From contig MPNW01000142.1 of the NCBI GenBank assembly GCA_011800805.1, positions 87,981-151,980 of the forward strand: a DNA stretch of 64,000 bases, given 5' to 3'. Position 1 is the first letter of the stretch. Each line of letters opens with the position of its first letter. The stretch is from Hirudo medicinalis (Eukaryota; Annelida; Clitellata; Hirudinida; Hirudinidae). The notes under the pieces are model-generated. The model did not search any database and had not been told where the DNA came from. It was given only the letters and a program-made list of their open reading frames with translations. The position numbers and the translations under genes are program-made. Of this stretch, positions 11,049 through 59,997 are shown in pieces.

Positions 11049-11930
11049 TTGTTGCATTTTGGTTTAATTTTTGGTGGTCTTTACGACTTAAAAACATTTG
11101 CATTAAGACTTATCCCATTAAAGAATAAAAACCTGGAAGGAATCAACGGGGATGACCAAAACAGCCTATTCCCAGATCTCCTCATAATTATTAAGCCAGC
11201 TCAAGCAATGATCAACCGGTCTCATAATGGTAACCCTGACCTAATCGGTGATATGATCAACCACGTAGGCATGATTGTGCTCGAATGTATGAAGGAAGCA
11301 GGTATCCCTGAGACAGTCAGGGCTACCACCGAAGCTGGAGCCGACAAAGCTAATCAACATGAATAATGTCATAAACACTATTCAATGGAATTGTCAGTGC
11401 ATTAGCAACAAAATAGGTGAGTTTGTTTCATTTCTGAGATCCTTAAAAATTCTACCGGATATTATCTTGCTCCAAGAAACCTTTCTTAAAAGCGGGAAAT
11501 CCTTCAAATTACAAGGGTATCGAGTGGAGCGACTAGATCGGACTGATGACAGACATGGTGGAGGGATCATGACTTGTATCAGAGAAGGCCTAGCTTATAG
11601 CAGTTCTGTCATATCTGAGGACCCGGAATGTTTGATAACTTCTATCATTACAGGTTCCGCGACGATGAAGATTGTCAACTTTTGTGTTCCCCCTAGGCAA
11701 AGTCTATTCCAACGACCAATTGGAATTGATCTTGAACCATTCTTCTGAGTGCTTCGTCTGTGGAGACCTGAATGCTCGCTCCCAAATGTTCGTGTTGAAA
11801 TGGGAACTCCTAGCTGACCAACTTGATCCATCTTCGACTTCTTCCTGTTTCCCAATATAACGTAGTTTCTGCTTTCCGGGATTAAACTGCCAGTCTTGAT
11901 CAGATCCTCCAAACTAATGTTTGCAAGCAT
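11049..11930 (+). mobile_element. 5' fragment of a non-LTR retrotransposon (ORF1 end and ORF2 endonuclease)
   Basis: Frame 11049-11366 looks like the end of an ORF1 and overlaps by 8 nt the ATG of ORF2 at 11359. ORF2 starts with NTIQWNCQCISNKIGEF and continues with PDIILLQETFLK, the start of an AP-like endonuclease (EEP fold: N near the start, then the QET glutamate). HGGGIMTC follows. A frameshift near 11690 moves to the frame with ECFVCGDLNARSQ, the GDLNAR catalytic motif. Sequence after about 11860 does not continue into reverse transcriptase, so the element is 3'-truncated or rearranged. Confidence 0.8.
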
Positions 11931-14649: not shown

Positions 14650-17600
14650 TTATTTAAGTCTTTGTGACATTGCACGGTTTGCAAAATATTCATCCTCGTC
14701 TTCTGCAAGGTCCAGAGGATCTTGAGAGACCGAGTGAGGCAATCCGAGTTTTTCCAGCAAAATGTTAGGTTGAGTTATGTTCTTTGTTTTCCTTTCTACA
14801 ATAATAAAACGTAAAAAAAACTTATTTCGGAATAAAATTTAACTTTAAACAATTTCTGAAATTTACCCATGTATTCTTCAAGGAAATACTTGAGTTTGTC
14901 TGTTGTAAAAGAGGCAGCTTTTCGTGCCTTTATCATAGATTGGTGGAGCATGAACCACTTGTGCTCCAAACATTCTTCAATTGTCAGCCTACTCCTGTTG
15001 AAGACAATTTTCATTAAAAATGTTTTTAATAATTTGCTTTAAAACCATGCAAGATTAAAAGTTAGTGTTTTATTTTCATAAGTGGTATTCTTAAAAGTCG
15101 TCATTCGAACTATTTCCAACAGAGTCTAGTCCTGAACTATTTGTAATCACGGCTGCCGATAGAAATTTCGGGCCCCTAAAGCATGTTGATATGGTAATGA
15201 AAAAGCAATAAAAGGTCATGATTGTATAATTTTATTATTCTAAAACCCTGGCAGGCCCCAAAATTGCAAGGCCCCTGGGCACTTGACCCCTCTGTCCCTC
15301 CATCTCGGCAGCACTAGTTGTAATTATTCACATGATTTAATCAATTGTTTGAATCATACATTTCTATTCAAGAGATCAATTTTTTTTGTAAAATAAAATT
15401 AAAACGTTTCAAACTTTGGATTCTTTCTCAGAGTTTGATAGATAAACTTCAGAGAGTATTTCGTAGCACTTTGATGCAGAGCATGGACATCATATTTCAC
15501 GTATTTAATGTTCAGGTAGGTTTCATCTTCGCAGAAGGAATAGAAAGGAGACACTCCACTCATCCTGAAGAAACATTTTGGTCAAAATATTCACACTATA
15601 AAATCATCAGCTCACATGTAATAAGAAACCTACAAAATGAATGAAAGAACTCCAACTTTCCAGACATCAGCAGCAGTCCCAACTTTGTCATTTAAGACAT
15701 TTTCTGGAGCTAAACAAGACTCATTCTAAGTTATGAATTTACAACAATTTGGCAAAATAAAGTACTTCACCTACCCATAAACTCAGGGAGACCTCTCCTT
15801 AGAATTTGATCACCTGCAGGACTGGTTATTTTATGAGCGAGAGCAAAATCAATGAGTTTGATGTCGTAACGCCTTCTGCTTTGCATGACTACATTTTCTG
15901 GTTGGAGGTTCAGATAAACTATGCCTTTGTGGTGCAGATATTGCAAAGCATCCAGCACCTTTCGGTATCATTAGTAATTAATTAATTAATGAGTTGATCG
16001 AGCAATTACTAACTGATCTGCTAGATAATTTTCATGATTTATTTTACCTCATTCATACTTTTATAGCAATTTATTATCAATTGAACTGATAACCATAAGC
16101 ATATTTGCTGATAATTACCTGCTTGATGATGGAAGTAACTGTGTACTCATCGTAGCGATTCTTGAATGACAGGGAACGAACAACATTCTCACCAAAGAGT
16201 TTCTCAAAAGTGAGAACAATGCATCCTCCCCAAACGTATCCATCCAACATCTTAATGATGTGACCCTGCTTTATGCTCTTCAGCATGTCAAACTCTCTCA
16301 GACTCTCTCCTGGATTCTTGGAATCATATTCGGTTACCTTGCCGACTAAGGAACCACATTCTGCAGGCTGCTTTCTCTTAACGTCAAATATCACTGAGAA
16401 GCGACCACTGAAATTATTGTTATTATTTACATTGTGTTATTGTTATTTGGGATGCCAAGTACTTTATGACAATTTATGAGATTTGACGATCATTTTAAAA
16501 GTGTTGAAAACATTCAAAGAATTAGCCAATGTCGACAAATTGACAGTAAAGATAATAAGGCAATAAATAATCTATAAAAAAAAAAGAATTGATCAACGAC
16601 TTACTGCCAAATCTTTGAAAGAAATTCCAAGTCGTCGCATGGATTCTTATTTTCATAGAGAGGAGCCTCAGTTTCCTCTAATGCATCAGAAACCTCTTCA
16701 GTACTTTGGTCCACAGTTGGTGTCTTTGAATGCCTTGGTTCAGGGGAGGTTGATCTACTGCTCACTGGACTGTGCTCAGGGGAGGGTCTTGTGGCAGCTT
16801 GTCTTGATCTTAAAAGAATTTTTCTTGTTTCTTCGTCGATGTTCAGACTTCCTGTTCCTGATTTAAAATTAAATTATTTTCCATGATTTTTGAGAATTTA
16901 TGAAATGGATGATCAATTTGTGGTTCCGAAACATGTTCACCGCTAAATCAGACTTATCGAGTTATGCATCAAATGAGAGTAGCATCGTGCCCTTTGTGAT
17001 TGGTACAAGTTCATGTGTTATGAATGAATTCGCAAAGCAAGAATATTTTAGCCGACATATTACCTTTTTTCTTTGTCCGAATCTCAACTGAAGCCCAACT
17101 GTAGGGGCTCTGTCCAAATTTGTTGATGGCACTGATTCTGAATCTATAGGAAGTTTCTGGCTTGAGTCCTTTAATTATGACACATTCATCAATGCAGTAA
17201 GTTGCAGTGGTCCATCTCTCATCACCTGGGAGTAAGTAATTATTTTATTTTTAAATTATACAAAGATATTGATAGAATCTGACTCCATTTGTGGAACGAT
17301 ATCAAATTACGTTTGAATTCTTACAAAGATAAAAAAAAAGTTATACCAGGTTTAATGTGGTCCACTTTGTATGCCAATATGTAACTATTGCCATCTGATT
17401 CAGGAGATTCCCAAATCATGAAAACCTCTTTCTCAGAAATTTGAGTCACATGTGGGCGACCAGGTCTGCTAGGTTGACCTACAAATTATCAACGCATAAT
17501 TGCTCAAAATAAGGTTGCTTAATATAATTTCAAAGCTAAGATCAGGATTGTGATATATTGATATATTATTGTATGCAATTCATTTTCGTGAATCCAAAAT

Positions 17601-18815
17601 AATGTCTTACTTCCACAAAGCATTCTAGCTCGGCAAGTAACGCTTCCATATTTGTTTCGAGCCACACATTTGTAAACTCCAAAATCATTTGGTTTTGTCT
17701 GAAGAATGGTCAGCGAATATTTGCCATTATCATTTTTAGAAATCTTTACTCTTCCACCTTCATTCAAAATTTCGTCATTTCTAAACCAAGTTATGAGAGG
17801 CAGTGGATTTGCAATGACAACTGCTTTCAGTGTACAACTGTCACCCACATTATAAGCTTTATCATGAATTTTTTCCTTGAAGATTGGAGGGTATCCTGTT
17901 ATTCAAATTAGGAAGGGCGTTAATATAATATCTATTTACAGCATTACTTAAATAATAACCATCTTTAGAAAACATCATTCGACGCTTGTATCTCTTCTCA
18001 TGAACATCAACATCCCAGAAGTCTTCAATATCCATCTGCTCTTTTTCTAAATCCCTGACATTTCTCCTCTCCTTCATAAGGCCTTTCAAACTGGAACGTC
18101 TGGATGGATGGCCATGTGGAACATAGGAACTGCTGCTTGCCCTTCTGTACCTGGCCATTCTCAGAGAAAGAGCAATATCTTGAGAGGGGAAGAGCCTCGT
18201 ATCTGGTCCTGTTTGGTACTCAGAAGGATACTCGTACCACACATCTTCATCTTCATAATCACGTCCCCATTCAGAAGATGCTTCAGAAACATCGAACAGT
18301 GATGGTGTAGCAGACAAAAGACTACCTTGGCCTAGTTCCTATAGAAAATTACATTAAATTTTATGTTTTAAAATTCTAAATCATATTTAATTACTCATTT
18401 ATATAAAATACTAAATCTAATACAAATCTAAATACTAAAATCTAAAACTTGAAACTTATTTTTGTAAATAGCAAAAATTAATTATTGCTTCCATACACAT
18501 GCATTAACAATTAGAAAATGTTGTATTATGCTAATAAGATAGCTAATAAGTTAAAGATAGTGGATTACTTTCAGCAAAAGCTTGGGTCCGAATTCTGAAG
18601 TTTTCGATCCAATGCTGCTGGCAGCGTCACTGACATCATCTGCAAATGGTTCCGATACACCTGACTCCATTATTACAGGAACATCTTCGAGGTAAGAAGA
18701 AATTGTGCGAGAGTTGACCAGAGTTGTGACTTTTCTTGTACCCCTCTTAAAAAAAAACCCAAAAACAATTCAAATGAAAATTCAGAAAATAAATTTATTG
18801 TAGAAGAAAATGCTA

Positions 18816-18847
<32 letters not shown>

Positions 18848-21800
18848 ACTACTGAAAATATCACAACCTCAAATCTTGATCTCATGAGGTAGCTTTTATG
18901 CCTATCAATAGGTATCCTGTTACCAAGTCCCCTATGATTTGAGAACTCTATGAACGGATGAGACAGAGCTTCCTTGGCTGTCATTCGCTTCCTTAATTAA
19001 TTTATCATTGTCAAAATAAGCCACTAAAATAACATTAATATAATATTTTATTTCTTAATTTTGATTTTACTTTGAATCCACTTGAAGCAGTCTTCTAATG
19101 AAGTCCTTAGCTTCTGTTGATATATCAACAAAAGCTTCTCCATCAAATTCCCATTTGCCAGCTTTTATGGAAAGTAAAGTATCCTTGTAAGTTTCCTTGT
19201 GAAATGGTGATATGCCACTCAATCTGAATGTAAAGTAAGGAAGGATTTAAGCAAAATATAACAAATTATTATAAAATGTGAATTTAATAGTTAACATACA
19301 AATATCTGTATGTGGAGTATAAAAAATGTATGATTCACTTCACAGAATCATCATTATTATTAATAGCAGACATTTGAAAGTGAAAGTTGTGCATATTTAT
19401 GTTCAAATTAATAAAATATTGACATGAACTCTGAAGGGACTAACAAAATATAAGTGACAATCCCTATATTCCACATATCTGAGGCAAAGGTGACATCGTC
19501 TCCATTTACAATTTCGGGTGAACAGAATTCAGGTGTTACGTAGCTGACTTGAATCTTTTTGTAAGGTTTATAAACTTTGGCAAATCCAAAGTCTATGATT
19601 TTTATCTCATCAGTGGACGGATTCGACAAGTAAATATTTTCGGGCTGTAAAATGAACACTTAATGTCAAGAATCACTTGCAAATGCCTCATCAGTAACAC
19701 TGGCATACTTTGAGGTCCAAATGAAGAACATTCTTGGAATGCAAATATTTGACTGCAAGAAGCAGCTGATTTACAAAATATGCAATTTCACTTTCTGTTA
19801 GGCTGTCCTCATTTACCAATCTTTGTAAAAGTTCTCCACCTGTGACACTAATGATGGAGGGTAGTAAGTTTCAAATTAATAGAAAAAAATCCAAAAAAAG
19901 AAAACTTAAAGTCCGTCACCATTTCTATTTTATTAAAATTTATAAAAGGTAAAAATTGGAAAAACAACAGATCTGATATTTAACACAACTTACATCTCCA
20001 TAATAATTGCAAGTCTTTTCTTGCTTTCATATCCATCGATAACTGGTATGATATTTGGATGGTCCAAAGTTGCTAATATTTCAAGCTCTTGTGCCAACTC
20101 GTCTCTTCTTGCTAAGTTTTCATATTGCATGAATTTGCAGGCATACTGACTACCAGAATTCTTGTCAATCACTCTTTTCACAATACCATAGGATCCTCTG
20201 CATAAGACATCCATGATAAGTAAACCGAAATAATAAATTAATAAATTTTTTGACATATAATCACCTTCCAATTTCATCAATGATGTGGAAAAAGTCTTCC
20301 ACAGTTGCTGTGTTAAATTTGACATCCCTCCAAATTCCCGATTTTGCTGCACAAATTTAAATAAAATGAAAAGTATTCTAAATGGTCAGGTAAATACATA
20401 AAATCCATTTTTAAATGGAATTAATATACAACAACCAACCTGTGACTTTGACATTTGCAGTACAATAAACCCTTCCTGCAACATTTTCTGCTACACACTC
20501 ATAGACACCTTCATCAGCATGAATGGCATTCTTAATGTTAAGAGTCCAATGGTCAAATTCCTCTCTGAGGGCAGTAACCCTATGGGAATTGGCTACGGTC
20601 CTCCAGTCCTTTTTGAATTGTATGACTGGATATGGAATGCCATGCACTCTGCACTCCAGTTTTCCATTAGAATGCAGATGGAAGATTTGATCTTTCAACG
20701 GTTCCAGGAAAGTTGGAGGATCTGATAATTTCATTAAAACATGTCAAAATGGATAATAATTAATAATTTCCTCGAAGACATAAATGATTAATCAACTATA
20801 TTTACTAAAAATTAACAATCGACAATATTAACAATAAACCGTATTAATTACAACATTAATTAACAATTAACCATATTGTTATAACCCTAGCAACAGGGAT
20901 TACATAAGCGTGGTATTTACTGGTAATACCACCCATTTGTTAACTGAATATTTACTAAATGAATCAAACAATAAATTCGGCATAAATTAATCCCCATCGT
21001 TTATAACAATATTAATTAACAACATTAATTAACAATTAACCATGTTAATTAACATTAAATAAGGTCAATCAACATCCAAACATTTTGGATGAATGTCAGA
21101 TATATTTGGATATATTTGCTCCCAAACGAAGGATAATAAGAAGCTTCGCTTGCAGCTTCACCCACCTGACATCTCCATGCGAACGGCTCTGCTGCAAATT
21201 CCATGTTCATTCTGAACTTCTGCTTTGTAGTCACCAACATCAGAGAACGAGAAGTCAAGAACAGTCAATTTTAGTTCTCCATCCTTTGACAAGGTAGTTG
21301 TGAACTTGTTTCCCAATTCAATTCTACAAAATTATGCATGTGAAAATTAAGAAACTAACAATAATAGTTTAGTAATTAGTTAATTTCCAATAAGAATGAA
21401 TAGAAAAACGTGCAACTTGAAATCAACTTATTGATTAGATAATTATTAGAAGCATTATTAGAAATATAAATAAATGCGCATTTAAATGCACGAATCAAAC
21501 TTGAAAATACAAAATCTAAAATAAAGGATCGAATTAAACTAAAAAGTAACCTCTGATTGTGGAAGTACCAGGTGATTGTGGGTTCAGGATGAGCTCTTAT
21601 CTTGAATGAAATATGTGCTGGCCTGCCTTCGATGCCATACAAAAGTTCATCTTCTGGGCCCACAAACTCCGGTATGATTCCTTAATGCACGGAACAAACA
21701 TAAACGTAATCAATGTGCGGGCTTCTCGACAATGCGAACAATCGAAATTAACGAACAAAGACACAGACTTTCGGTATTTGTAAATAATTCTATTACTATT

Positions 21801-24800
21801 ATTTTAGACGAACGGTCGGCATAATATTTGTAATGCTGTAAAACATTTACATGTGAAACGTTGCTTTATATTTATAACATATTATAATTACTAAACCAAA
21901 AACAGTAAGGTGAGGCCAACTTACTCAAATAATCATATGCTTTTCTTTGAGGACCAATTGATTCACTTCTCTCTCTTTCAATGATCTTCATGTCTTCAAT
22001 GGGCTCCTGAATTTCTGCATTATTTAATTTTGTAACTCTAAATTACTACGTATTCAAATCAGCATTCTGTCTTGCTTTAGCCGTGTTCATGTTTAATAAA
22101 AAATTTACCTCATGTTTTCTGTGAAAAAGCGTTCATAAATAAAAAAAGTCATTAATAAAACCCAGTTCACCTTTTTTAGTATATTTCACAGGCATCGACG
22201 GCTCAGCAATTCCAAATTCGTTGGCTGCTCTGATTCGGAAATAATAATCTTTGTGGCCACTAAACTTTGTAACTTTGAACTCTGGTTCTTTGAGATCTGT
22301 TGCCAGCTATAAAAATTTAAATGGCAAAGTTATAATTAGAATCATCATCATCATAATCTACGTCATAAACTTAAAACTTGCTTTTGTCCATTCCATAGAA
22401 GGAGGAACTCTCTGTTCGGCAATATACCAAATGTCCGTTTGAGCGGCATATTGTGGTACGGAACTGGGTTTCCATTTCAAGAGGAAGGAGTCGGGGCGAA
22501 CTTGTGATATTTCCGGTCTGTCCCAAATTGTGCGCGGTTTCACTTTTGATTTGATTTCTGTCGCGTCTGGGATTGAAGGCTTCCTCAAAGAACTGAGATC
22601 TGAATAAAATAAAAAAGAATTTTAAATTAAAGAAAAATAAAAACTTTGTAAGCAAAATTAGTTTCAAACCAATTCTGGCAAAAATGGTGGAAGTAAGAGA
22701 GGGGTCACTAATTCCATATTCATTGCCAGCCCTGACTCTGAACATGTAATCCTTTTCAGATTTATATTCCTTCATGCTGAAAACTGGTTCTTTCAAATCC
22801 GAGGCAATTTCCAACCAATTTTTACTTGGAGGGCACCTCCTCTCAAGGATGTAAAATACATCAGTTTTCAAAACGTTTTCAGCAAATTCTGCTGGATGCC
22901 AACTTATTCTAAAAACATAAAATGAATCGCACAATGTTATTGGAGATTAAACTGATATGATATCGTGTTTTAATGAAAAGTCAAATATTTTTATAAATAT
23001 TTTATGCTTATGTTCTAAAATCATTGTATTGCAGCAAAATATATTAACAACGAAAATATAATCTACGTACTCCAGAGAATCAGGAAGTTCTTTAATATTT
23101 GGTTTTTCTCTGGGTGTCTTTGGTGGGAGCTTTTCCTTTCTTGACACTTTTTGCGATTTTGTGGAATCATCTTTACTCTCTGCTTAAATAAAAATTACCC
23201 TTAGCAAATGTGATAAAGAAGCCCTAAAATTAGGACTGACAAACAGAACTTATCGTTTCAAGTAAAAATGTTTCCATTAAGCACGATTCAATAGCAAATA
23301 CTTATCCGGCTTTATCGGATTGTTAGATTTGTTTTTGCAATTCTTCGCAAAAAAAAACTTAAAAAACTTTTTGTTTACCTATTCTGCCATAATAGGTTGC
23401 GCACATTGAGGGGTCTGAAACTCCAAATTCATTTTCAGCTCGCACTCTGTAGAGGCAATCCTTTTCCACATCAAAATCTTTGAGAGTGAATGAAGTTTCA
23501 ATAATTCCTCTGTAAACATCGGTCCAGTCGGAAAAGGTACCCATTCTATCCAGATGTTTTCTTTCGACTATGTATCTACAGTAAAATTAATTCATTAAAT
23601 TGATCAAATTTATCCTTAAAACTTATATTAAATCATACATGGATGCTTGTAAAACAAAAGGTACTAACGATGTTGGGGTTATCTTGGCATGAGGTGGGAT
23701 TACTGAAGAGTGCCATGTGATTGTGATGGTTGTGGAATCTGTGATGATGACATCAGGCTTTATTGAGGACATGGATGGAATGATGTTTTGGTTCAAGAAT
23801 TCAACTTTGCGTGCAAGGGGACTTGTTTCTTTTTCTTTAAGAGGAACTATAGTAGCAATTAATGATAGGTAATGAAACAATTTAGGCAGAAAAGTTTTCA
23901 ATTAACTTTGAATTTGAATTCATTCATGCAAATTTTAAAGCATCAGACAAATAAATGTTATTATGAAGATCACTTAACTGTTACTAATTAATAAATTACA
24001 AGAATAATGTCATGAAGTTAAAAATGTTACTTTGAGGAATTAATGCAGCCAGGCTCGAAGACTGTCCACCGCTATTGGTGAGAGTGCATTGGTAACAACC
24101 GGAATCTTCTTCTGCTACGTTCGTTATTTTGAGCTCGTGAATGGAGTCTGTGTCGGTAAACTCAACTCGTCCACTAGCACGAAGTGGTAGTTTGTCTTTG
24201 AACCTTTAATTGATATTTCGGATATTTTATTTAAACCACCCATTTTCACTTTGAAACTTTGTAAAGTTCTATCGTTAATTTTCTCTTAAAAATTGTTCGT
24301 CAAGTGTTGAGCTCATACCATTGTACTTTAGGAACTGGTTTTCCTACAGCAGTGCAATAAAATCTGGCTGTTGATCCAATGGGAACAACAAGGTTTTGAA
24401 GTCGCCTAGTGAAACTTGGTGCCAAATTATTTTCATGTCGCTCATGTTCTCTGCAATTATCATTAAGAAATACTTAAATTGATACATCGCATGTATTATC
24501 ATTAATTATCAAACACTGACATTATAGGCTTATTAACATATAGTTTGGCCATGCACAACGTTTCACCAGCCTGATTTTTCAAAACACATGTATAGAGTCC
24601 TGCATCGGAATATCTAACAGAATCTATTGTCAAGTATGCTTTGAAGTTGTTTTGAGATGTTTTGATCCTTGTACCACTCTATGAGTAAATCAGAATGTAT
24701 GTATACTCTGCATAAAATAGAAATCATATGATGAAAATGTTAACTAACCACCACTATGTACTTATTGTGATACCACGTTGCAAGCGGTTCTGGATAACCT

Positions 24801-39800: not shown

Positions 39801-42800
39801 GAAAAGCTGCAAATGCAAATATTAAAGATACTAACGACGAAAGACTAATTTTTTAAAGAAATAATTTTTCTGCAAAAATTTTTTGCAAAATTTCTAACAT
39901 TTGACTAAAATTGGTTCAAAAAATTCAGCCGATCTTTTGCTTGGACCAAACTTGTTAGCAGCAAAAACACGAACAAAGTAGGAAGCGCCGGGCTTCAGTG
40001 GCTTCAAACAAGAAAAGTTGCACTTTCCGTCAACAACACTTGATTTGGTCCAAGTATCGCCTGCCACCAAACATGTTTCAATGGTGTAATGGGATATTGG
40101 AGATTTCCCTTGGTTCCTTGGTTCATCCCATGACATAGTGATGGAGTCATCTGTTGACTCAATGTGTCTGAGATTCAATGGTTCACTGGGAATGTCTAAA
40201 TGTTTTTAGAGAATAATTATAAAATTACAAATGTTTATGTTACAATATTTTGATTAGTATCTTTCAAACAAATATTTAAAAACTACCATCACTAGTGCCT
40301 AGTTGGATTGGTCTGAACAACTCGGCAGGGTGCCTTGACTTTCCAGCCTTGTTAACTGAGTATACTCTTGCAAAATAGTTTGTTCCAGGTGCCAGGTCAT
40401 TCAATTTGATCGAATTTTGTTTTCCATCTACCTCAGCAATGTTCTTCCAGCCATCAAAACCATTTAGTGAGAGTTCGATTATGTAAGAAGCAATGTTTTG
40501 CTTGTCAGGAGCCTCCCAAAAAAGTAAAACTGTTGACTTGTCAAGTGGTTTTGTTTGAAGGTTAGAAGGAGCCCTAGGTACATCTAATTTAAAATGAAAT
40601 CAATTTACCACTATTTAAGCAGTTTGCAATAGTAGCTGATATATTAGGTACTTAATATTGCTATCATTTCAATTTTAATGTAATCTAAATTTCGGTCTAT
40701 TGACTTCCCGTTAAATTAAGACTCATTAAAACTAAAGAAACTCAGAGAACAAAATTATTTAAAAAATCATTGTTTTAGATGGTGCCTTATAGGGCGTTTT
40801 TAAGATGAACGTTCAAAAATTTTATGAAAACAATTACTAATCAAGCAGCTTGAAGCATAATTTTATGCAAAAATATATTAACTTATTTAAAAGTATTATT
40901 TAATTTATCAACGAAATTTATTTCGCATTACCACTTACCGGGTCCCTCAAAAAGAGAAACATAGTCTGTAAGTTGTGCTGGTATTGGACTTGTCCCTGCA
41001 GAATTTTTTCCCCTCACACGGAATTGATACTTCCTTCCTTTCTTTAAAAAATCACATGTGTAGGTGCATGTGCCAATAACTTTTCCAATCAATGCAAAAT
41101 CTGAGTCTTCTATAGATTTCATCTCAATCAGATACTGCAGCACATTGTCAGTACCATCAGAAGGACTTGCTTCCCAAGCTAAGGTTATGCTGTCACTAGA
41201 AATATCAGATACGTGGAAGTTTCTTGGAGTTCCTGGACATTCTACAACAGATGGATCCAATGTTCTCAGTCTTTTACTATTAATTATCTTATTTAATATT
41301 AACATTTATTTTATTTGGATAAATAAGAACTCATGTAGATGCGTACTTGTTGGCAATTTGGCACAGGTAGATTCCTGTAACTCAGTAGGTCTGTTGCTTA
41401 CTCCAATTTCATTTTCAGAAAATATTCTTGAGAAGTAATGTTTTCCAATTTCAAGGTCAGTTATTCTGACTGTATGTTGCAATCCAGAAACTTTATATGG
41501 ATTCCAATTGCCAGAACCATTGAGGCTCAATTCGATAATGTATGCCAAAATTGGCAACCCACCATCAAACCTCGGTTTGTCCCATGCAAAAGATAAAGTA
41601 CCATCACTTATATCAATGACTCTAAAGTTGACAGGGGGCATTGGAAATACTGAAATTATGTTGTATTTGCATATATATATATATATAATAACAATTAATG
41701 AAGAATATAAATTATTAAAATATTCTGGAAATAATTGTTTTATATAATTACTTTGTATAATATTTATCTCTACAAAATCCCAACCTCCAGAATCTTTTAG
41801 CTTCACAAATGTCTCAAGTTCAGTTGCTTCTGTGCTAAAACCACTTTGATTCCTAGCTCTAACACGGAACTTGTAAGAGGTTCCCTTATCGAGGTAATCA
41901 CAAAAAAACGAATTTTGCTTTCCATCAACTCTTCCAAATGGCCTGAAGTCCACATCTCCTTCATTTTTTATGTCAATAAAATATTGTTCTGCGTTAATTG
42001 ATGGTTGCCAGTTAAGTACCAAAGAAGAAGTGGTAATGTTTGAAGCTCTCAGGTTCGCTGGTGTTCCTGGAAGTTCTGTGAAATACAAATTATTATCGTT
42101 TTAAACATTAACAAGAATGTCTTTCAAATAGATGGAGAAAAAGAGTGAGGAAAAATTCACAATATAAAAAAAGACGAAATATTCCAAAAAGGTGGAATTG
42201 TGAATTGTACATTGCGAATGTATGTAGTGCATATAAACAAATGTAGTGCAAACATCTTCGGCTTCTTTCATTATTTGAAATAACATATTTTATGGTGCTA
42301 GAATGTAAAATATACCTAATGGTTTTCTGGCACATACAGCATCATAAAAATCGGCAGGTCTCTTGCAGAAGCCAACTGCATTCTCCGAAAAAACACGAAT
42401 ATAGTAATAGCTGCCTGGTCGCAGATCATATATCTCAGTCGAATTACATTTTGAGTCCACTTTCTTTACTTTGGTCCATAAATTACTTCCACTTGGACAA
42501 ATCTCAATAGCATAACCTGTTATCGGACTACCCCCATCATACTTTGGAGGGCTCCAAGACAGTGAAATTATTCCATCACTGATAGGCTTTACAGCCAAGT
42601 TTTGTGGTGAAGATGGAAATTCTGTTAAATTCCAAGTCATTAATAGATGCACTAATAATTTTTTTTAAATATTGAAGCACAAATTTACAAACCCTTAGAT
42701 GATTTAATTTGAATTGAGGATGGCAATTCAATAGGTTCGCTGAACCCAACAGAATTTCTAGCCCTAACTCTTGCTTTGTAGAATCTACCAGGTTTGAGAT

Positions 42801-45800
42801 ACTCAAAAGCAAAACTGGTGCTTCTTCCATCCACCCTTCCAACAGGCAAATAATCAGCATCCTTGTCTTCTTTCATGTCAATAAAGTATTGAGTGATGCT
42901 TTCTCCCTCTTCTCCTTCAGCACTTGGATGATCCCAAACTAGAGTGGCAGAGTTTTCCGTGATGTCCATCACTCTCAAGTCTTTTGGCCTTCTGGGAAGC
43001 TCTGCAAACATTAACAGTCAATAATGAGTACAAATGTGCATAAAAGTAAAACACCTAAAATATGCTTAAAACTTCAACTGACGAGCTGATTTCTTGCAAC
43101 AGATTGGTTCATAAAATTCGGCTGCTTTTCGACTGGTGCCTATTTCATTTCTTGCAAATACTCGTACAAAATAATAGCCACCAGATAATAGGTTCTTTAG
43201 GATGGCACCAGTAGCACCTGAATCCAAACTGCAAGCAGGCATCCAATTCTTGCTACCACCTTTGCATATCTCAACATCGTATCCAGCCAGAGGACATCCA
43301 CCAGTTTGTTTTGGTGGGATCCATGAAATCGTCATTGTGCCATCATCCACGTGATTTAATTTTAAGTTCAGTGGAGCAGAAGGAACATCTGCACAATAAA
43401 TGAAATAAATATATTTACTCCAACATTTCATGTCTTAATTTTTATCCAAACCTCTCATGCTTTCAAGAATCACAGGATGAGTCAAAATTGCAGCATCTTT
43501 GCTAAATCCTGCAGCATTTTTCCCTCTTACTCTGAAAGAATAATGTTTTCCTTTCTGCAGAAAATCACAAGTGAAACAATTCACTCTTCCATCGACTCTG
43601 CCAGCTGGAATAAACTCAAAATCTTTATCTTCCTTGAAGTCAATGAAAAATTGGGCAACGTCACCGCCTTCTTGTAGTAAGTCCCACTCTAAGGTTACTT
43701 CTGATGTCGTTATTCTTTTGATTCTCAGATTTGATGGAGATTTTGGTATTTCTACAATAAAAAAGTGTCAAATATAAAATACCTAGCTGCTTTTCTATTT
43801 ATCATAAGTAGATTAACAGTATCATTTATGAATTAAATTTGAGAACATTATATATTATAAATGAAATAAACATGTAAACTTAAATAATAAATAGAAATAG
43901 TAAATAGCCTATGGATAGAATAATGGAAAGTAGCGACAACTTACCAACAGGTTTTTTTGGACAAATTGGTTCAAGCATTTCAGCAGGGATTTTATTGCTT
44001 CCAACTTTATTACATGCTGATACTCGCACAAAATAAAGGGAATCATTTTCTAATTGATTTATACAAGCCATGCATATACCACTTCCATAAGTTCCCTTTT
44101 GATCCCAAAAGTCATCATCAATTTTTCTCGTTTCAATAATATATTTGAGGATCTCTGTTCCGCCATCACTATATGGTGGTTCCCATGATATTGTGACAGT
44201 CCTATCACCCACATCTACTTGCCTCAAGTTCAATGGCATGGTTGGAACATCTAAAATTTAAATTTAGTATTGTTGTCTTGCCAATCTTTACTGATGAATA
44301 AATTCGCATACAATTTCTATGCACTAGAATCTTACCAATGGCTTTGCTGAGTTCAACAAGTTGTTTTAACCTTGCTGGTTCACCATAGCCAGCAGAATTC
44401 TTTCCCCTGACCTGGAAATCATACTTTTTGTTTCTTTGCATGAATTCACAGGTATATTTTGTTAGCTTTCCATCTACACGAGCAATAGGAGTAAAATCAG
44501 GCTGTCTTTCTTCTTTCATCTCTATGTAGTAAAGCGTTGCTTCGTTGTTATCGTCACACTCTGGTTGATCCCAGGCAAGCTCTAAATATGCAGGTGTCGC
44601 GGTAGAAACTCTCAAGTTCGAAGGACGAAGAGGGACGCCTAGCGCATAATATGAGTCAATATCAAATGGTTCTCCATGATTTCAAATTTTAAAATAATAA
44701 AAACTCCTACTGAGTGGTGTTTTGCATAGAACAGCTTTTCCAAGTTCCAGAGGCTTTTTTGACCATCCGGCTTCATTGATGGCAAAAATCCGAAAGAAAT
44801 AATACTCAGCAGGCACCAAACCAGTGATTTCAAAATCATTTCGGCTACTGTCAACCTGGCAAGAAGTGGACCAAATGTGGCTCTCACTGCGGCACGATTC
44901 GATGACATAAAATAGGATTGGTGAGCCTCCATCATAAAGAGGCGACCTCCATCCAAGTTTCACTGCTCCATCAGAGATGTTCAGCACAAATAAACTTGAT
45001 GGAGCCAGAGGTGGTTCTGCATTGAAAATTAGATGTTTCAAATTCTTTTAATGAATTTAATTAACTAATGGTGTGTAGTAGAATGCGGATGAAGACATGA
45101 TTGACTTAATCAAAACCAGAAGCTATTATTATAATTCAATATTAATATTATATTTCAAGAACTGCAAAACTGATGATGCATAACATAAGACAAATACCTA
45201 CCAAATGGAAGGCATGCTTTAACTGGAGGCCTTATTTCTGCACATTTTTCACTGAGTCCAGCTTCGTTCTCAGCAAATACTCTAATGTAGTACTCATGGG
45301 CATCCAACAAATTTGTTATCTAAAGCGTCAAAATTGTATCTAAATTATCAAAATATTTCAAAATATCAAATACAATTAATTCAAACAATAATAAATTATA
45401 AACTTGTTATATTCGGTATTTTATATGGCAAATTGGTGATACAATATTCAAACCCATACTTGATAAGTAAATTGTTGAGTCCCAACGAATGCAACAAACT
45501 TATATCCTATTTCAAATGCATCTCTGATTTCAATCAAATATCTTGTGATGGCACTACCACCATCAGAAGCAGGTTTCGTCCATTTGATTTTAATGTAATC
45601 TTTCCAAACATCAACCACACTTAATTCTTGAGGTGCAGAAGGCTTTTCTGTCAGTAGGATAGGTAATTAAATGAATAGTGCATTCGGGTAATAACAATTT
45701 ATGTAATCTAATAATAAGAAGTTTCAAATAAACCTGCTCAGCAATAAAATAGGCTCATAAAAGAGATGACTTACCAAATGGCAGCTTGGCAGTTACAGAC

Positions 45801-48800
45801 TCAGGCGTTTCAACGTGAGGTCCTCTTCCACTAAGATTCTCAGCATAAACTCGAAAAAAATATGTCTGACCTTCGAAAACATTTGTGATTTTTGTGGAAA
45901 GTTCTTCAGGACCTGAATAATTAAGAAGCTCATAATTTTAAGTTAAATCGTAGGTTATTTATATATCCTAGTATTTGCATATAATCTTGAATTTACAAAA
46001 GCCTGATATTGTTAAGATATTTATTCCATTTCCATATCCACACTGTTCTAGTTCAATTACTGAACCTGTTTTGGCCACATTTGTCCACAAATTAAGATGT
46101 ATGTCCCTCTTCTCAACGTTGTAGCAGATTATTGGTGATCCTCCATCGAATTCAGGTTTGGACCAAGACAAACAAACATAATCAGAGTTGAAATCAGTAA
46201 CATTTAAGTTTCTAGGTGCGAAAGGAGGATCTGAAATTGTTCACATTGTCCTTAATAATTTACGAAATGATTTAACTGATTAGCTGTATAATGAACCAAA
46301 AAATAAATCAATATTTTCTCTCAGTTTCAAAGAGTTAAATAGTAGTACCAAATGGCATTTTGGCTTTGCATGGCATTTCAAGGATAGCTGCTTCTTTGCT
46401 AAATCCAACAGAGTTCACAGCATAAATTCTGAAGTAGTAATCAGCTCCTTCAAAAAGTCCCTCCGCTTTGAAAGATTTCACATCGGCAGGTACCCTTCCG
46501 GCTCTGACCCATACAGGCCGATCAGATTCCCTCTTATCGATAACATATTCAGTTATAGGTTTGCCTCCATCTGAGGTTGGGCTATCCCAAGTAAAGCTGA
46601 CAAAATCAGTCCAGTATTCAATGATTCTAAGGTTTCTTGGTGCTTTTGGTTCATCTACAGATGTTAAGATATAGATCTTGTTATCAGATAATCAAGAAAA
46701 TGAAACATTCTTATAAAAAAATTAAAAAGTTATAAAGTATCTTTAAAAATGTTAAACAAAAACTAATATTGTATCAATAGCATAGATTTCAAAAATTTAT
46801 TGAGATGTTATTTTTCAAAATATTACTGGCTAATATATTCCACGAGTACCGACCATAAGGTTGCTTAGCTTTAATGGCTTTAAGAGTCTCGCACGGCAAA
46901 CTGACTCCGACTTGATTCTCTGCATAAACTCTGAACTGGTACTCGATGCCCTCAAACAGGCGAATGACTTTGTATTGGCGAACAGAAGGTCCAACACTAG
47001 CAACGTAAATAAAGTCTTCCCTGGTGATATCCTTCTTCTCTAGATTGTAACCAAGGATTGGAGTTCCGCCATCTGATGCCGACTCTTCCCACTGAAGGAC
47101 GGCATAACTTGCATCAACCTCGATGACTTGGAGATTTCTTGGTGGTGAAGGAAGATCTGTAATTTGTAACGCTCAGTAGAAATAGTTTTAGCAGCACTTT
47201 CATACAGATTGATGATTAATTTCGTTAATTTATTTAACATATTATTGATTATTATTGATATTGGTTATTGATTGATTATTATTGATATTATAAGATATCT
47301 GCTAAAATAGTAATAGACATAATTTCATTCCAAAATTTAAACACATTGTTACAAAATTTGAAAAAATCACGTTATACAAATGGACAAACCATATGGCAAT
47401 TTGGATATGACTGGATGGTTCAATTCAAGGCTCGGTCCCACACCAATCTGATTTTCAGCCGAAACTTTGAATAAGTAAGCATTTCCTTGAGTGAGATTGG
47501 AAGCCTTGTATTCTGTTTCCGTAGTTCTGACCTTTGAAACAAGACCCCAGGTGCTCCCCAATTTCGAAATATCTTTCTTTTCCAGGACGTAGTAAAGGAC
47601 TCGCGCCCCACCATCTGTCTGCGGTGGCAACCAAGCAATTGTTATAAAGTCTTTCCCAGTTTCTTTCACATGCAATTTGCGAGGACAAGATGGATGACCT
47701 GACAATAAATTCAGTTCCATTTCATACAACTAGACAAATGGAAGAATTGTTCAAATATATATTAACATAGAAATATATTTCTATAGACAAATAACTCTAA
47801 AAACCTTTTGCTATAAATTTGACCTTATTGAATTTAATATTTTATTAAAAACTAAATGCAGTTAAAAAATGTAGTTCAAAGTTAAATGTAGGTTATTATA
47901 TTTTTTGCAAAAGTTATATTTCCATTTTGACGAACATATGAATGGACAATAAATCTAAAAATCTAAAAATAACATTAGCCACTTTAACAACCATAAAAAA
48001 AAATGACTTACTAAGTGTGGACTTTGGAGTTAAAGAAACAGTGTAGGCAAATGGTCCGGTACCAATAGCATTGCAGGCTGCCACTCTGAACTTGTATGCA
48101 TATCCTTCATGAAGTCTTGTTGCTCTAAAATTCATCTGCAATGGATCCAAATAAGCGATATTAGCGAAGAGGCCTCCGTTCACACTCTTCTCCACTTGAT
48201 AGCCAGTTATTCTTTCTTGACCATCATATTCCGGAATATTCCAGCTGAGCACAGCAAAGTCTTTGCCCATTTCTGTTACCGTCAGATCCGAGGGCTCGGA
48301 CGGCGGAGCTACAAGTAAAATGCGAATGTTATAATCATCAATAATTATTAAGTTAAATAGTTATTTAATTAGTTAAATAGTTACTCTGATTCAAGATTTT
48401 AAACTAACTTTTTATGTGAACCTCAAATTCAACCATGTCTTGTCCGACAGAATTCTCAGCCTTAACTTTGTATGAACCACCGTCTTCTTTGTCCAAGCTC
48501 CAAACTTTTAGGTAGTACCAACTTCCTGCATTCTCCATGATGACCTTAGAACTCTTGAAGAGCTTATTGTTACCATGGTACCATGACACATTTGGCGTTG
48601 GACATCCGCTGACATTGACTTCTAAACAAAGAGTTCCTCCCATGCAAAAATAGAGTGGCTTGTTAATCCCAGTTTCACTGGTTATCTTTGGAGCTAGAGA
48701 AGAGTTTATTTATTTTAGTGACATCCTATTTGCAAATAAGTTCTAGGTCAGAAAATATTAAATAACAATATCAATTATCAATTTACAGTTATTAGGCTAT

Positions 48801-49665
48801 GTGTGTCCAACCATCCCAAATAAAAATATAATTACACCCAATCCAAAACCAAAAATAGCTATGAAGTACCCATTTTTTTATGATATCTCATACATTTAAT
48901 AACAATAACATGCGACTATAAAAGCAACACCCGCTTTTTGTAGTGTTCGCATCCTAGCCTGACAGGGAGGAGGCGGTTGTAGTAACTTCATATCTGATAC
49001 AGATACACAAGGCTCTCAAAACGTCGGCTAAATACAAATAAATACAAACAAGTAAAGAACCCTTACCAACTAGCTTCTCTTCAATTATTTCTCTTTCATT
49101 TTCTTCAATCCTTGTAATAATTTCTTCTATAATTGTTTGCCTTCCATACTTTTGCATTTCCACCTGAGAATGTTCGGACTCAGAAATTCTCTCAACAGTA
49201 AGAGAGGAGAAATCTGCTTCTTTGTCTGATAGTTTATCCACTGGAAATAAAATAATCGAATAATACATGATCTATACGACATTGATAAAAATAACAATGA
49301 TTTTTATAAATTAAGTTGAAAATAATCTGCTTACTTTTGATAGCCAAATAAGTCATTGTTGAAGCCAGGCCTTCGCTGTTCTCCGCTCGACACTGGTACA
49401 AACCCTCGTCTGCGAGGGTTAAATTTTTTATCGCCAACGTGACGACGCCGCGGTTGGGGTCGAAGTCTACGTCGTATCTCGAGTCGCCGGAGATTTCAAG
49501 GTCATCTTTATACCATTTGATCTTTGGGATTGGATAGCCAATAACTTTGCACTCGAATTTTTGTGTCTCACCCAGCGACGCTCCCACGCGATCCATCGTT
49601 CGCTTGTCTTTTGCGTTACCTTTGAGTAAAACGTTGTATTCATCATCAAACTTTCTCTTCCCCAT
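14650..49665 (-). CDS. Giant obscurin/UNC-89-class muscle protein: Ig, FN3, SH3, RhoGEF and two kinase domains
   Basis: Exons on the minus strand run almost without interruption from an ATG at 49665 (MGKRKFDDEYNVLLKG) to a stop at 14650-14652 (ending RAMSQRLK). Domain order: Ig-Ig, about 27 FN3, Lys/Glu-rich repeat with assembly gap, about 7 Ig, 2 SH3-like, DH-PH, 5 Ig, 3 FN3, 2 Ig, kinase 1, linker, Ig-FN3, Ser-rich linker, kinase 2. SH3-DH-PH plus the Ig-Ig-kinase...Ig-FN3-kinase tail is the signature of obscurin/UNC-89, which links myosin M-lines to sarcoplasmic reticulum and signals through Rho and kinase activity. Roughly 6,500 residues are visible outside the gap. Most modules are single exons, with phase-1 borders where checked. 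Oddities: a very long FN3 array, two SH3-like domains, a degenerate second kinase, and RhoGEF placed mid-protein rather than N-terminal as in nematode UNC-89. It could be two genes or use internal promoters (for instance before SH3), though no break in frame was found outside the gap. Confidence 0.88.
14868..16408 (-). other. Kinase 2 of obscurin-like protein, predicted pseudokinase
   Basis: Exons carry the N-lobe (about 16408-16100, SGRFSVIFDV with Lys in LVGKVTEYD), the catalytic loop exon (about 15960-15775) and the C-lobe (SGVSPFYSF near 15560, KNP-K-SRLTIEECLEHKW joined across 15435/15000). The loop that is normally HRDLKPEN reads YLNLQPEN, so the catalytic Asp is Asn and the Lys is Gln. 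The DFG motif reads DFALAH. The ATP-binding Lys appears kept. The domain is therefore predicted to be catalytically dead or very weak and to act as a scaffold. It is followed by a short acidic tail with DLAEDEDEYF before the stop. Confidence 0.82.
15140..15324. mobile_element. Small hAT-like MITE (about 169 bp) inside kinase 2 intron
   Basis: Element 15148-15316 starts CACGGCTGCCGATAG and ends in CTCGGCAGCACTA, giving imperfect terminal inverted repeats around GCTGCCGA. It is flanked by TTTGTAAT and GTTGTAAT, a near-perfect 8-bp target duplication as made by hAT transposases. The interior is GGGCCCC-rich at both ends and has no coding capacity. Confidence 0.6.
16600..16866 (-). other. Ser/Pro/Thr-rich linker exon between FN3 and kinase 2
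   Basis: The exon encodes a low-complexity segment with RPSPEHSPVSSRSTSPEPR and acidic residues, leading into FLSKIWQ before kinase 2. The SP/TP sites suggest proline-directed phosphorylation. This is a flexible interkinase linker by position and composition. Confidence 0.65.
17065..17898 (-). other. Ig-FN3 pair preceding kinase 2
   Basis: The Ig domain (about 17898-17610) has CTLKAVV, ITWFRNDE and DFGVYKCVARNKYG, i.e. the two Cys, the Trp and the D-x-G-x-Y-x-C signature. The FN3 domain, split over two exons (about 17480-17345 and 17235-17065), has GQPSRPGRP, MIWESPESDG and YRFRINAINKFGQSPYS. An Ig-FN3 unit just before the second kinase is conserved in obscurin and UNC-89. Confidence 0.85.
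17898..18745 (-). other. Interkinase acidic/Arg-rich linker
   Basis: Exons at about 18745-18570 and 18340-17940 encode no recognised fold. The first is Ser/Asp-rich. The second carries an acidic aromatic patch (WGRDYEDEDVWYEYPSEY) followed by a basic Arg/Ser patch (RYRRASSSSYVPHGHPSRRS) that offers basophilic kinase sites. In this position obscurin-class proteins have long disordered regions that bind LIM and other partners; which partners apply here is unknown. Confidence 0.65.
18818..18846. repeat. (TTA)n microsatellite
   Basis: About ten TTA/ATT units in the intron that follows the kinase 1 C-lobe exons. Confidence 0.85.
18880..20345 (-). other. Kinase 1 of obscurin-like protein, catalytic residues intact
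   Basis: Five or more exons encode a complete MLCK/titin-type kinase. The glycine loop is GRGSYGIVKRV, the ATP Lys is in YACKFM, the alpha-C Glu is in ELAQELEIL, the hinge follows LAIIMEM, and the catalytic loop is LHLDLKPEN (HLD replacing HRD, as usual in this class), with the Asp and Lys kept. Metal binding is DFGFAK, the activation loop ends VTPEFCSPEI, then SDMWNIGIVTYILL, SGISPFHKETY and the C-lobe RRLLQVDSKKRMTAKEALSH. It is predicted active, unlike kinase 2. Confidence 0.88.
20440..21678 (-). other. Two Ig domains preceding kinase 1
   Basis: The first Ig is split over exons about 21678-21550 (IPEFVGPEDELLYGIEGRP, ITWYFHNQR) and 21325-21165 (LKLTVLDFSFSDVGDYKAEV). It lacks the usual second Cys. 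The second Ig (about 20725-20440) has GKLECRVHGIPYP, a Phe in place of the core Trp (IQFKKDW), and DEGVYECVAENVAGR. The intervening intron holds AT-rich direct repeats (AACAATATTA with TTAATTAACAATTAACCAT, near 20820-20880 and 21003-21058). Confidence 0.83.
22170..23850 (-). other. Three FN3 domains between the Ig run and kinase 1
   Basis: FN3 units are split over several exons. The first (about 23760-23390) has TITITWHSSV and YRVRAENEFGVSDPSM. The second (about 22915-22670) has ISWHPAEFAENV and FRVRAGNEYGISDPSL. The third (about 22590-22180) has LLKWKPSSVPQYAAQTD and YFRIRAANEFGIAEPS. A Lys/Pro-rich linker (EKLPPKTPREKPN) sits between units one and two. The three share the unusual NE(F/Y)G(I/V)(S/A)(D/E)PS ending, so they probably arose by local duplication. 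Confidence 0.8.
24030..26050 (-). other. Five Ig domains following the PH domain
   Basis: Ig units are at about 26010-25700 (VKFRCKIESQPLPEVTWC), 25605-25245 (AMFTCRITGKPIPSLKW, DEGVYECRASNKAG), 25165-24880 (IRWYHDDKEI, HSGRYTCQLENELGK), 24880-24530 (VKFICHYQGYPEPLATWYH, DAGLYTCVLKNQAGE) and 24460-24030 (ARFYCTAVGKPVPKVQWY, DSGCYQCTLTNSGG). Most are split by one intron inside the domain. They are typical I-set modules of muscle giant proteins. Confidence 0.85.
26050..27430 (-). other. RhoGEF (DH-PH) cassette
   Basis: DH helices span exons near 27430-27245 (DPEYIKDL-like start, IPEIYNFHKEF), 26985-26910 (FERELNNIEDDYDELANVF), 26845-26755 (HFQHYVSYLKNQ) and 26700-26415 (CLKRPAQRLNEYILLLKDI, the conserved K-R-P-x-Q-R-x-x-x-Y-x-L-L-L-K helix). 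PH follows over 26350-26210 (RHVFLFRDNLIFTKKK) and 26133-26050 (PIYIQARSPLIKDAWCDAL, with the C-terminal helix Trp). The key DH residues are kept, so exchange activity on a Rho-family GTPase is expected; the substrate cannot be read from sequence. Confidence 0.85.
27480..27690. repeat. (TA)n/(CA)n low-complexity intron sequence
   Basis: Runs of ACACACACAC, TATATATA and GATATATA-type units occupy the intron between the second SH3-like exon and the first DH exon. A repeated phrase (CATTTTGATTGGATAA) occurs twice, at about 27603-27618 and 27635-27650. Confidence 0.8.
27945..28811 (-). other. Tandem SH3-like domains
   Basis: The first unit, over exons 28811-28630 and about 28360-28260, has LLHDYDFKDRNTRLRKGDVI, YWLVRPE and YLPNKYL, matching the SH3 ALYDY, GD-x-I, W and P-x-x-Y positions. 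The second unit (about 28190-27945) has LFLNDNDLLEVLDKKSSDRW and EGWVPSNIL, again SH3-like, but without a clear ALYDY motif. Obscurin/UNC-89 proteins normally carry one SH3 before DH-PH, so two is unusual. A charged stretch (FDEDREVLYYSSDDDF) separates them. Confidence 0.72.
28450..28545. repeat. Compound trinucleotide microsatellite (GAT/AAC/AAT)n
   Basis: A run of GAT units, then AAC units, then AAT units lies in the intron that interrupts the first SH3-like domain. Confidence 0.9.
28900..32530 (-). other. About seven Ig-like domains and an insert before SH3
   Basis: Modules are recognised at about 32500-32240, 32215-31880 (split), 31766-31400 (split; VCWLKDG, DAGVYTCKIENDVE), 31030-30708 (IKVKWYKNK, DDIGNYALKVV), 30653-29760 (split in three), 29730-29400 (IQLTCKISGEPFPDV, DAGIYQFVASNDRG) and 29370-28900 (NASWFKDG, SGEYTCVISNPYG). 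Several lack the core Trp or a Cys, so they are divergent I-set folds. A non-Ig insert of about 110 residues, rich in Ala/Ile/Pro (near 31390-31040), lies after the third. These exons link the FN3 array and the SH3-RhoGEF section in one frame. Confidence 0.75.
30185..30262 (+). repeat. tRNA-like sequence (pseudogene or SINE head) in intron
   Basis: It contains an A-box-like AACCAAGTGGTTAAGGC and, about 30 bases on, a B-box-like GGAGTTCAAATCTT, with a C/G stem between. The acceptor ends do not pair clearly, so a functional tRNA is unlikely. It resembles Leu/Ser-type tRNA heads that seed SINEs and differs from the SINE family described elsewhere in the window. Confidence 0.45.
32698..33985 (-). 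other. Lys/Glu/Pro-rich repeat exons around an assembly gap
   Basis: Exon 33935-33985 ends QKRDTPKPNE and is followed by a GTGACTGG donor. Exon 32698-32831, cut by the gap on its 5' side, ends KKKKKKPVQKKDAPKPDE with the same donor. The introns after both exons are also similar. The unit looks like a charged PEVK-like spring or linker repeat, and more copies probably lie in the gap. Confidence 0.75.
32832..33812. other. Assembly gap (981 N)
   Basis: All bases are N. The flanks are near-identical copies of one exon-intron unit, so the assembler probably failed on a tandem repeat. The N length need not equal the true gap size. Confidence 0.99.
34150..36262 (-). other. Last two FN3 domains of the long array, split by a large intron
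   Basis: FN3-26 (about 36262-36018) has IKWEPPMYDLESPV and YAIRIYAENE and continues with exon 35872-35765. A short charged exon (about 34768-34722, EDMKKRLDSEIKEAE) follows. FN3-27 (about 34544-34325 and 34270-34150) has TLGWLPPENTGNCP and YSFRIYAENEVGVS. The large intron between 35765 and 34768 contains a transposable element. Confidence 0.78.
34813..35755. mobile_element. Non-autonomous DNA transposon with TIRs and 10-bp target duplication
   Basis: The element 34823-35745 begins TAAAAGGGTCAAATCAAATG and its reversed end begins CTTCTGGCTCAGATTAAATG; both continue AACTCA. After diverged stretches both inner arms read CACAAAAGTAT. CAGAATGTTA flanks both sides, at 34813-34822 and 35746-35755, as a perfect target duplication. 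The interior has no coding potential but holds a direct repeat of about 190 bp offset by 434 bp (35001-35180 and 35435-35625, both containing TTTTTCTG-AAATCAGCCACACATAATG-type sequence). A 9-10 bp duplication suggests a Mutator-like transposase, though the family is not certain. Confidence 0.78.
36320..48308 (-). other. Array of about 25 FN3 domains, mostly one domain per exon
   Basis: Each exon of about 300 nt encodes one FN3 domain, with a P-x-x-P-x-x-L start, a core W and an RV-x-x-x-N-x-x-G end. Starts are near 48308, 47698, 47157, 46656, 46232 (split), 45649 (split), 45016, 44637, 44250, 43753, 43389, 43002, 42623, 42077, 41651, 41250, 40585, 40197, 39808, 39062, 38286, 37757, 37380, 37012 (divergent) and 36610. 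From domain 7 two types alternate. Type A has DGG-SPI and ends like EPICCKKP. Type B has FIDFKEDKD, GRVDG and FRVRGKN-AG. Borders are phase 1 at both ends where checked, so modules can be added or skipped without a frameshift. In titin such arrays bind the myosin filament, and a thick-filament role is inferred. Confidence 0.85.
37820..37955 (+). repeat. tRNA-derived SINE, copy B (in FN3-array intron)
   Basis: The tRNA-like head has an A-box GATTAGCTCAGAGGG; the tail is CTTGGGAAGGGGCATTACAT followed by AAATGG, matching the other two copies. It is inserted antisense in the intron between FN3-21 and FN3-22. Confidence 0.72.
48409..49665 (-). other. N-terminal Ig domains and helical linker of the obscurin-like protein
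   Basis: Exon 49335-49665 holds the putative start and the first Ig (QKFECKVIGYPIPKIKWY, DEGLYQCRAENSEG). Exon 49067-49240 is a highly charged helical linker (IIEEIITRIEENEREIIEEK). Exon 48409-48693 holds the second Ig (LEVNVSGCPTPNVSWYHG, DGGSYKVKAENSVG), which lacks the second Cys. An additional upstream coding exon cannot be excluded, because the ATG is preceded only by T/A-rich sequence. Confidence 0.75.
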
Positions 49666-59908: not shown

Positions 59909-59997
59909 TAAATGTTCATAAAGTCTGCTTATTTTTTGGATAAACTCTTCTAAACTGAAGACTTGGTGTCCTGAATCTGTTACATCAAACAATTCCA

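Follow-up and report, generated by a model that had tools for sequence, protein, structure and literature searches.

A probable obscurin/UNC-89 gene of the leech Hirudo medicinalis with a long FN3 array ahead of its RhoGEF and tandem kinases

The window, a stretch of 64,000 nucleotides of Hirudo medicinalis DNA (contig MPNW01000142.1, positions 87,981 to 151,980), contains on its minus strand an obscurin-type giant gene of 92 exons, predicted to code for 6564 aa (49665-14650). This gene is probably the obscurin/UNC-89 of an annelid, in which an array of about 27 FN3 domains is joined to a tail made of SH3-DH-PH, Ig domains and tandem kinases. The obscurin call was made chiefly because of the domain order, and the trees point in that direction without proving it. 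The layout differs from both described obscurin layouts, that of nematodes and insects and that of vertebrates. What is new here is the FN3 content of the array, a RhoGEF behind a long array being already known from chordates.

Gene model and domain layout

The gene model was obtained with a simple splice-aware gene finder, whose codon use was trained on the clear exons of the same locus. A first run gave 191 exons and was set aside as over-split, and the first two exons of the model (50728-50614 and 50039-49981) were removed as unsupported. The reading frames of the model are open; the gene starts at an ATG at 49665 and its stop codon ends at 14650, bearing out the limits proposed in an earlier note on this DNA (the first-pass annotation). 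An FN3 is listed as two fragments because the model is incomplete at 45647-45202, and other exon edges are approximate. Domains were assigned with HMMs built from the gene's own domains and by a Pfam scan of the protein in five pieces covering 3885 of the 6564 aa, kinase 1 (PK1) being scanned separately. The own-domain scan gave totals of 31 FN3 and 17 Ig for the whole protein.

From the N-terminus, and all on the minus strand, two Ig and a charged linker (48301-49605; Pfam and own HMMs) precede the array of 27 FN3 (34154-48306; own HMMs, and Pfam for part of the array). Seven Ig follow (28804-32501; Pfam and own HMMs), the first of them weak (14 bits), and then an SH3 (28010-28189; PF07653 37.8 bits, PF00018 36.6 bits), the RhoGEF or DH domain (26471-27946; Pfam, PDB sequence search and tree), a PH of the SOS1/NGEF type (25985-26348; Pfam) and five further Ig (23839-25969; Pfam and own HMMs). 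Three divergent FN3 (22172-23760; 11-22 bits) and two Ig (20339-21672), all found by the own HMMs, separate these from kinase 1 (18937-20293; Pfam, tree and PDB sequence search), which is followed by an interkinase linker of 206 aa (17961-18930; own HMMs), one Ig and one FN3 (17065-17890; Pfam and own HMMs) and kinase 2 (PK2; 14940-16636). The HMMER/Pfam domain search that the first-pass annotation had proposed placed FN3, SH3, RhoGEF, PH and both kinases above cut-off. SH3, RhoGEF and SOS1_NGEF_PH all exceeded their Pfam cut-offs in the spliced piece, RhoGEF (PF00621) with 92.3 bits there and with matches at 26492-26659 and 27257-27418 on genomic DNA, and the kinases scored 224 bits (PK1) and 102 bits (PK2). 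Directly before the clear SH3 lies a weak second SH3-like stretch (28764-28319, minus strand), possibly an extra degenerate SH3, which at 23.2 bits for SH3_9 is below the Pfam cut-off of 30.

Around the gene, the window carries an isochorismatase domain (492-830, plus strand), a Tudor-domain gene (4377-5782, minus strand), a piece of a hAT transposase (9678-9959, plus strand) and an endonuclease/exonuclease domain that is LINE-like in look (11293-11745, plus strand). In a plus-strand gene at 55-64 kb, exon 62832-63047 resembles by eye the PDZ of neurabin/spinophilin; neither this exon nor 59959-61446 had a Pfam match. Erythrocruorin linkers are an annelid feature, and their C-terminal domain (PF16915) had six matches in the genome, five of them on this contig outside the window (~27.6-37.3 kb) and one on contig C550, which point to an annelid. 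Searches for nematode SL1, nematode cuticle collagen and arthropod RR cuticle, run without a positive control, had 0 matches. Elsewhere in the assembly, a mitochondrial-type COX1 fragment with a stretch repeated around one N lies inside a 112-kb contig (C456:12.2-13.1 kb), and another COX1, which the standard code reads without a stop, lies on a 56-kb, possibly bacterial contig (C459:20.8-22.2 kb); the COX1 fragments read ATA as Met and AAA as Lys.

The FN3 array and its junction with the tail

An HMM made from the gene's own FN3 exons counted 27 consecutive FN3 before the Ig/SH3 part, in agreement with the about 27 FN3 that the first-pass annotation had put ahead of an SH3-RhoGEF-Ig-kinase-Ig-FN3-kinase tail. 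All 24 above-cut-off matches of PF00041 on this contig fall in 36014-48300 (24 of the 150 scored genome-wide, out of 309 candidates). The array has mostly one domain per exon and introns mostly in phase 1, and 30 of the 33 exons of its region begin in phase 1, as in domain-per-exon arrays. Its period is two domains (score of 128 at lag 2 and 87 at lag 1), whereas four molluscan proteins, with all the FN3 of each protein scored, have a three-domain period (236-266 at lag 3, 168-187 at lags 1 and 2); the pure FN3 run of the Bulinus protein P0125 gave 243 at lag 3 versus 168 and 173. Domain-by-domain orthology with the molluscan FN3 runs is not supported, given this difference of periods (2 versus 3) and a mean best-match identity of 33-36% per set tried. 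Among the matches listed (the best 120 of 611), the best database match of the array was to Batillaria (3225 bits), and its top matches were FN3-run titins from molluscs and their relatives.

Within the array, FN3 10 (43749-43453) and FN3 19 (39804-39508) are 73% identical, and at the nine-domain offset the pairs 11-20, 13-22 and 14-23 reach 45-47% identity, with pair 12-21 (28%) not outstanding; this offset points to block duplication or gene conversion. For FN3 1-6, scores against the FN3 of a titin-like locus of the same genome exceed those against the rest of the array. Scores within the array are the higher ones for FN3 7-23 and 25-27 (just slightly so for 21 and 25-27) and not for FN3 24. 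With FN3 1-6 titin-like, most others array-like and the nine-domain offset, the array probably began as a titin-like set of domains and grew at its present site.

Several ways of explaining the array without such a gene were weighed. The first-pass annotation had seen in it a feature of titin and twitchin, and runs of this style do exist: pure runs of 14-49 FN3 occur in the 'titin' of molluscs, annelids and ambulacrarians, with 49 in a row in Batillaria (P0121), 45 in Elysia marginata (P0122) and 14 in Owenia (P0126). That the array is itself a displaced part of titin or twitchin is scarcely credible, in spite of the titin-like affinity of FN3 1-6, since both genes have loci of their own, which already goes far to refute the idea, and the within-array scores of FN3 7-23 exceed those with either locus. 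The twitchin-like gene (C139:145-185 kb) ends in IIF-kinase-II and was split in two by the gene finder. The titin-like gene (C1023:4-44 kb) has IIFFF repeats and a terminal FN3 run, like the protein of Owenia, and large N gaps; no kinase was found downstream of it up to 57 kb of the 105-kb contig. A scaffolding error that brought together an array and an obscurin tail of separate origin across a run of N is also very improbable. The window's sole gap, of 981 N (32832-33812), which the first-pass annotation does not mention, does lie exactly at the join, between the FN3 array and the Ig/SH3/DH part, but a DNA search of the 133-Mb assembly with the gap flank (243 bp) gave two matches: the flank, and on the far side of the gap a second copy in the same orientation, 82% identical over 125 bp, the pattern expected of a tandem duplication in place. 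Very common words are ignored in this search, which could strictly miss a high-copy repeat at the flank. A peptide search with the flank exon had the tail-side copy as its one match. What was duplicated here is apparently a lysine-rich exon (33985-33935 and 32820-32698) together with its intron, copied in tandem, so that both edges of the gap would belong together, and the length of 981 N seems to be an estimate rather than a default.

The region of the junction (32698-34127) thus runs from the donor after the last FN3 exon (34127) through two copies of the lysine-rich exon with the gap between them. No acceptor in the whole model is stronger than that of the array-side copy, and the last FN3 exon and both lysine-rich copies have ordinary donors, on splice scores that were trained on this same gene. 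Three exons near the end of the FN3 series (34, 36 and 37) have weak acceptors (5th-12th percentile), and the worst acceptor of the model is that of the tail-side copy, whose true start is probably hidden in the gap, which would account for the poor score. The first tail-side Ig exon begins at an acceptor and has no ATG ahead of its Ig. If the donor after 34127 is skipped, the frame ends at an in-frame TAA (34090-34088) that overlaps an AATAAA, and the gene finder closes a gene at 34088 when starts are free. These observations, the hiding of the join by the gap and the FN3-only or nearly FN3-only proteins annotated elsewhere (31 FN3 in Saccoglossus, 40 in Bulinus, and 40 plus one Ig in Patiria) would suit two adjacent genes on the same strand, an Ig2-FN3x27 muscle protein ending at ~34.09 kb and an obscurin of chordate order starting in or near the gap. 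We regard such a pair as unlikely, because the last FN3 exon has an ordinary donor, the next exon carries the best acceptor of the model and duplicates a tail-side exon, and an AATAAA is a weak sign in an AT-rich stretch (27% GC). The gene finder also gave a single gene at its default settings, and it kept array and RhoGEF together in one gene at start penalties of -10 and -6. A start penalty of -3 or an intron penalty of -12 split the gene at 22.3 kb, inside the tail and not at the gap, and shed the same two upstream exons that had been removed as unsupported; start penalties of 0 and +3 broke it everywhere, the gap region included, and an intron penalty of -7 extended it past the stop to 13818. 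We infer that array and RhoGEF tail are on one transcript.

Family assignment, SH3-DH-PH module and tandem kinases

SH3-DH-PH is present, and so are tandem C-terminal kinases separated by a linker, an Ig and an FN3, as in human obscurin; in this the assignment of the first-pass annotation to the obscurin class was sound, and its impression of a giant of an unrecognised type gives way to a known family with an unusual array. An Ig-dominated array with few FN3, which is descriptive of known obscurins and not required, is absent (17 Ig, 31 FN3). Ahead of the DH there are 0-2 FN3 in human obscurin and in the nine other obscurin/UNC-89 proteins examined, so the array is as unusual for an obscurin as had been claimed. 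Vertebrate obscurin (OBSCN; human P0277) has the same succession of long array, Ig, SH3-DH-PH, Ig, kinase, linker, Ig-FN3 and kinase, the human SH3 lying outside our scan. With the same HMMs, however, the human protein has 2 FN3 and 52 Ig before the DH and the leech gene 27 FN3 and 9 Ig. The RhoGEF placement is therefore not novel in the sense first proposed: chordate-type obscurins also carry it behind a long array, as described in sections of a review (PMC12812942), and what differs is the part between PH and kinase 1, which consists of three Ig in human and of Ig5-FN3x3-Ig2 in the leech gene.

Nematode and insect UNC-89 share SH3-DH-PH, Ig and, according to those sections of the fly and C. 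elegans literature consulted here, tandem kinases. In Trichuris suis UNC-89 (P0001), by contrast, DH-PH lies near the N-terminus with 49 Ig and no FN3, and no kinase was found in the 5447-aa record. The FN3-run titins of molluscs, annelids and ambulacrarians resemble the leech gene in their pure FN3 runs, but a DH is absent from all 120 FN3-rich proteins listed, and P0121, P0122 and P0131 have one kinase each against two in the leech gene. Titin has no DH and a single titin-type kinase, whereas the leech gene has a DH and two kinases. Twitchin/projectin shares FN3, Ig and one kinase of the same broad class, and differs in its FN3-FN3-Ig super-repeats, the lack of a DH and, in the leech, its separate locus. 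Trio/Kalirin has two DH-PH modules (both Trio proteins examined carry two) and one kinase, as opposed to one DH-PH and two kinases here. The protein searches retrieved relatives sharing 5-residue words, with lengths of ~2685-8545 aa, and listed 279 proteins (120 of 217, 120 of 611, and 44, five of them seen before), which is no census. A DH combined with at least 10 FN3 occurred in none of these 279 (157 have a DH and 120 have at least 10 FN3), and no DH protein among them had more than 3 FN3. No spiralian obscurin was among the 44 proteins found by this 5-residue-word search at these lengths, which is weak evidence, and no FN3-rich obscurin in print was found in the open-licence literature.

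The phylogenetic check proposed in the first-pass annotation went partly in favour of obscurin. In a 19-row tree, DH-PH was grouped with 12 vertebrate obscurins at 89/83 (88/80 without a long Argopecten row); four Trio DH-PH stood apart, and the Argopecten protein and Trichuris UNC-89 lay outside on long branches. Grouping this DH-PH instead with Trio (p 0.181) or Trichuris (p 0.24) was not rejected by an AU test, and the sequence was flagged for its long branch and its odd composition; without both long rows, a value of 100/98 concerns the Trio split only and says nothing on this DH-PH. Identity to all tree members is 22-26%. A PDB sequence search gave Trio and DBS as the closest DH chains and a weak match to the UNC-89 PH chain 1fho (E 4e-5). 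Aligned to PDB chains, the DH has retained, in its first conserved region, the Glu with a catalytic role, as well as a QRLxxYxLLLKD segment. All nine BLAST matches (E 0.001) of an SH3-DH-PH query against the assembly were at this locus, which gives no sign of a second obscurin DH. For the DH-PH, an obscurin origin is favoured and not proven.

As for the kinases, PK1 keeps HLDLKPEN and DFG. PK2 reads YLNLQPEN, with YLN in place of HRD (15922-15893), and DFA in place of DFG (15856-15833), so that the catalytic Asp is changed to Asn and DFG is altered; a doubtful modelled exon (15297-15247) was left out of the PK2 query. In a 28-row tree PK1 fell outside the titin/twitchin clade at 98/99 and was otherwise unplaced, while PK2 joined vertebrate obscurin kinase 2 at only 66/85, a grouping flagged as long branches meeting. 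In the PDB sequence search the closest kinase chains were of DAPK, with twitchin, titin and the obscurin chain 8ak2 lower. Kinase 1 is accordingly predicted from its motifs to be catalytic, and kinase 2 to be a pseudokinase serving as scaffold. Vertebrate obscurin kinase 2 keeps HLD in all six rows, whereas the leech PK2 has lost it. In fly and nematode obscurins, passages of PMC10129394 describe PK1 as a pseudokinase and PK2 as probably active. If the assembly is right, and it is a single one, the polarity of the two kinases is reversed in the leech gene; this was an unexpected extra to the claims of the first-pass annotation.

Proposed role and implications

In titin and twitchin, the FN3 arrays extend along the thick filaments and their FN3 domains are held to bind them; one FN3 is ~4 nm long. 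By analogy, the FN3 array of the leech protein would be a spacer and likely a thick-filament-binding rod, whose ~27 FN3, about 100 nm, may anchor the signalling part of the protein along these filaments in worm muscle; myosin binding, location and catalytic activity are all deductions from the domains present. A two-domain unit would have been duplicated within the gene to lengthen the array, with a block duplication offset by nine domains adding to it. Obscurins are described, in parts of PMC12812942 and PMC10129394, as M-line proteins whose DH-PH activates Rho and whose kinases form a kinase-linker-kinase unit. The C-terminal part of the leech protein would be a conserved signalling scaffold of this kind, with Rho activation by DH-PH and a kinase 1-linker-kinase 2 unit in which kinase 1 may act as the catalytic partner and kinase 2 as the scaffold.

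We tentatively propose, as a possibility with the odds rather against it, that annelids have a third bilaterian class of obscurin, with the array before the RhoGEF as in chordates, this array being an expanding FN3 rod that binds the thick filament directly, and with a catalytic kinase that precedes the pseudokinase. If this is true, the order shared by an annelid and chordates would imply that the older bilaterian layout had the array before the RhoGEF, and that the N-terminal position of the RhoGEF in ecdysozoans is derived. An annelid obscurin adds a lineage that is unnamed in sections of the 2026 review text (PMC12812942), and the ancestral order becomes testable. The FN3 array is a candidate thick-filament-binding segment, and the reversed pair of pseudokinase and kinase would provide a natural test of the idea, put forward in passages of PMC10129394, that PK1 regulates PK2.
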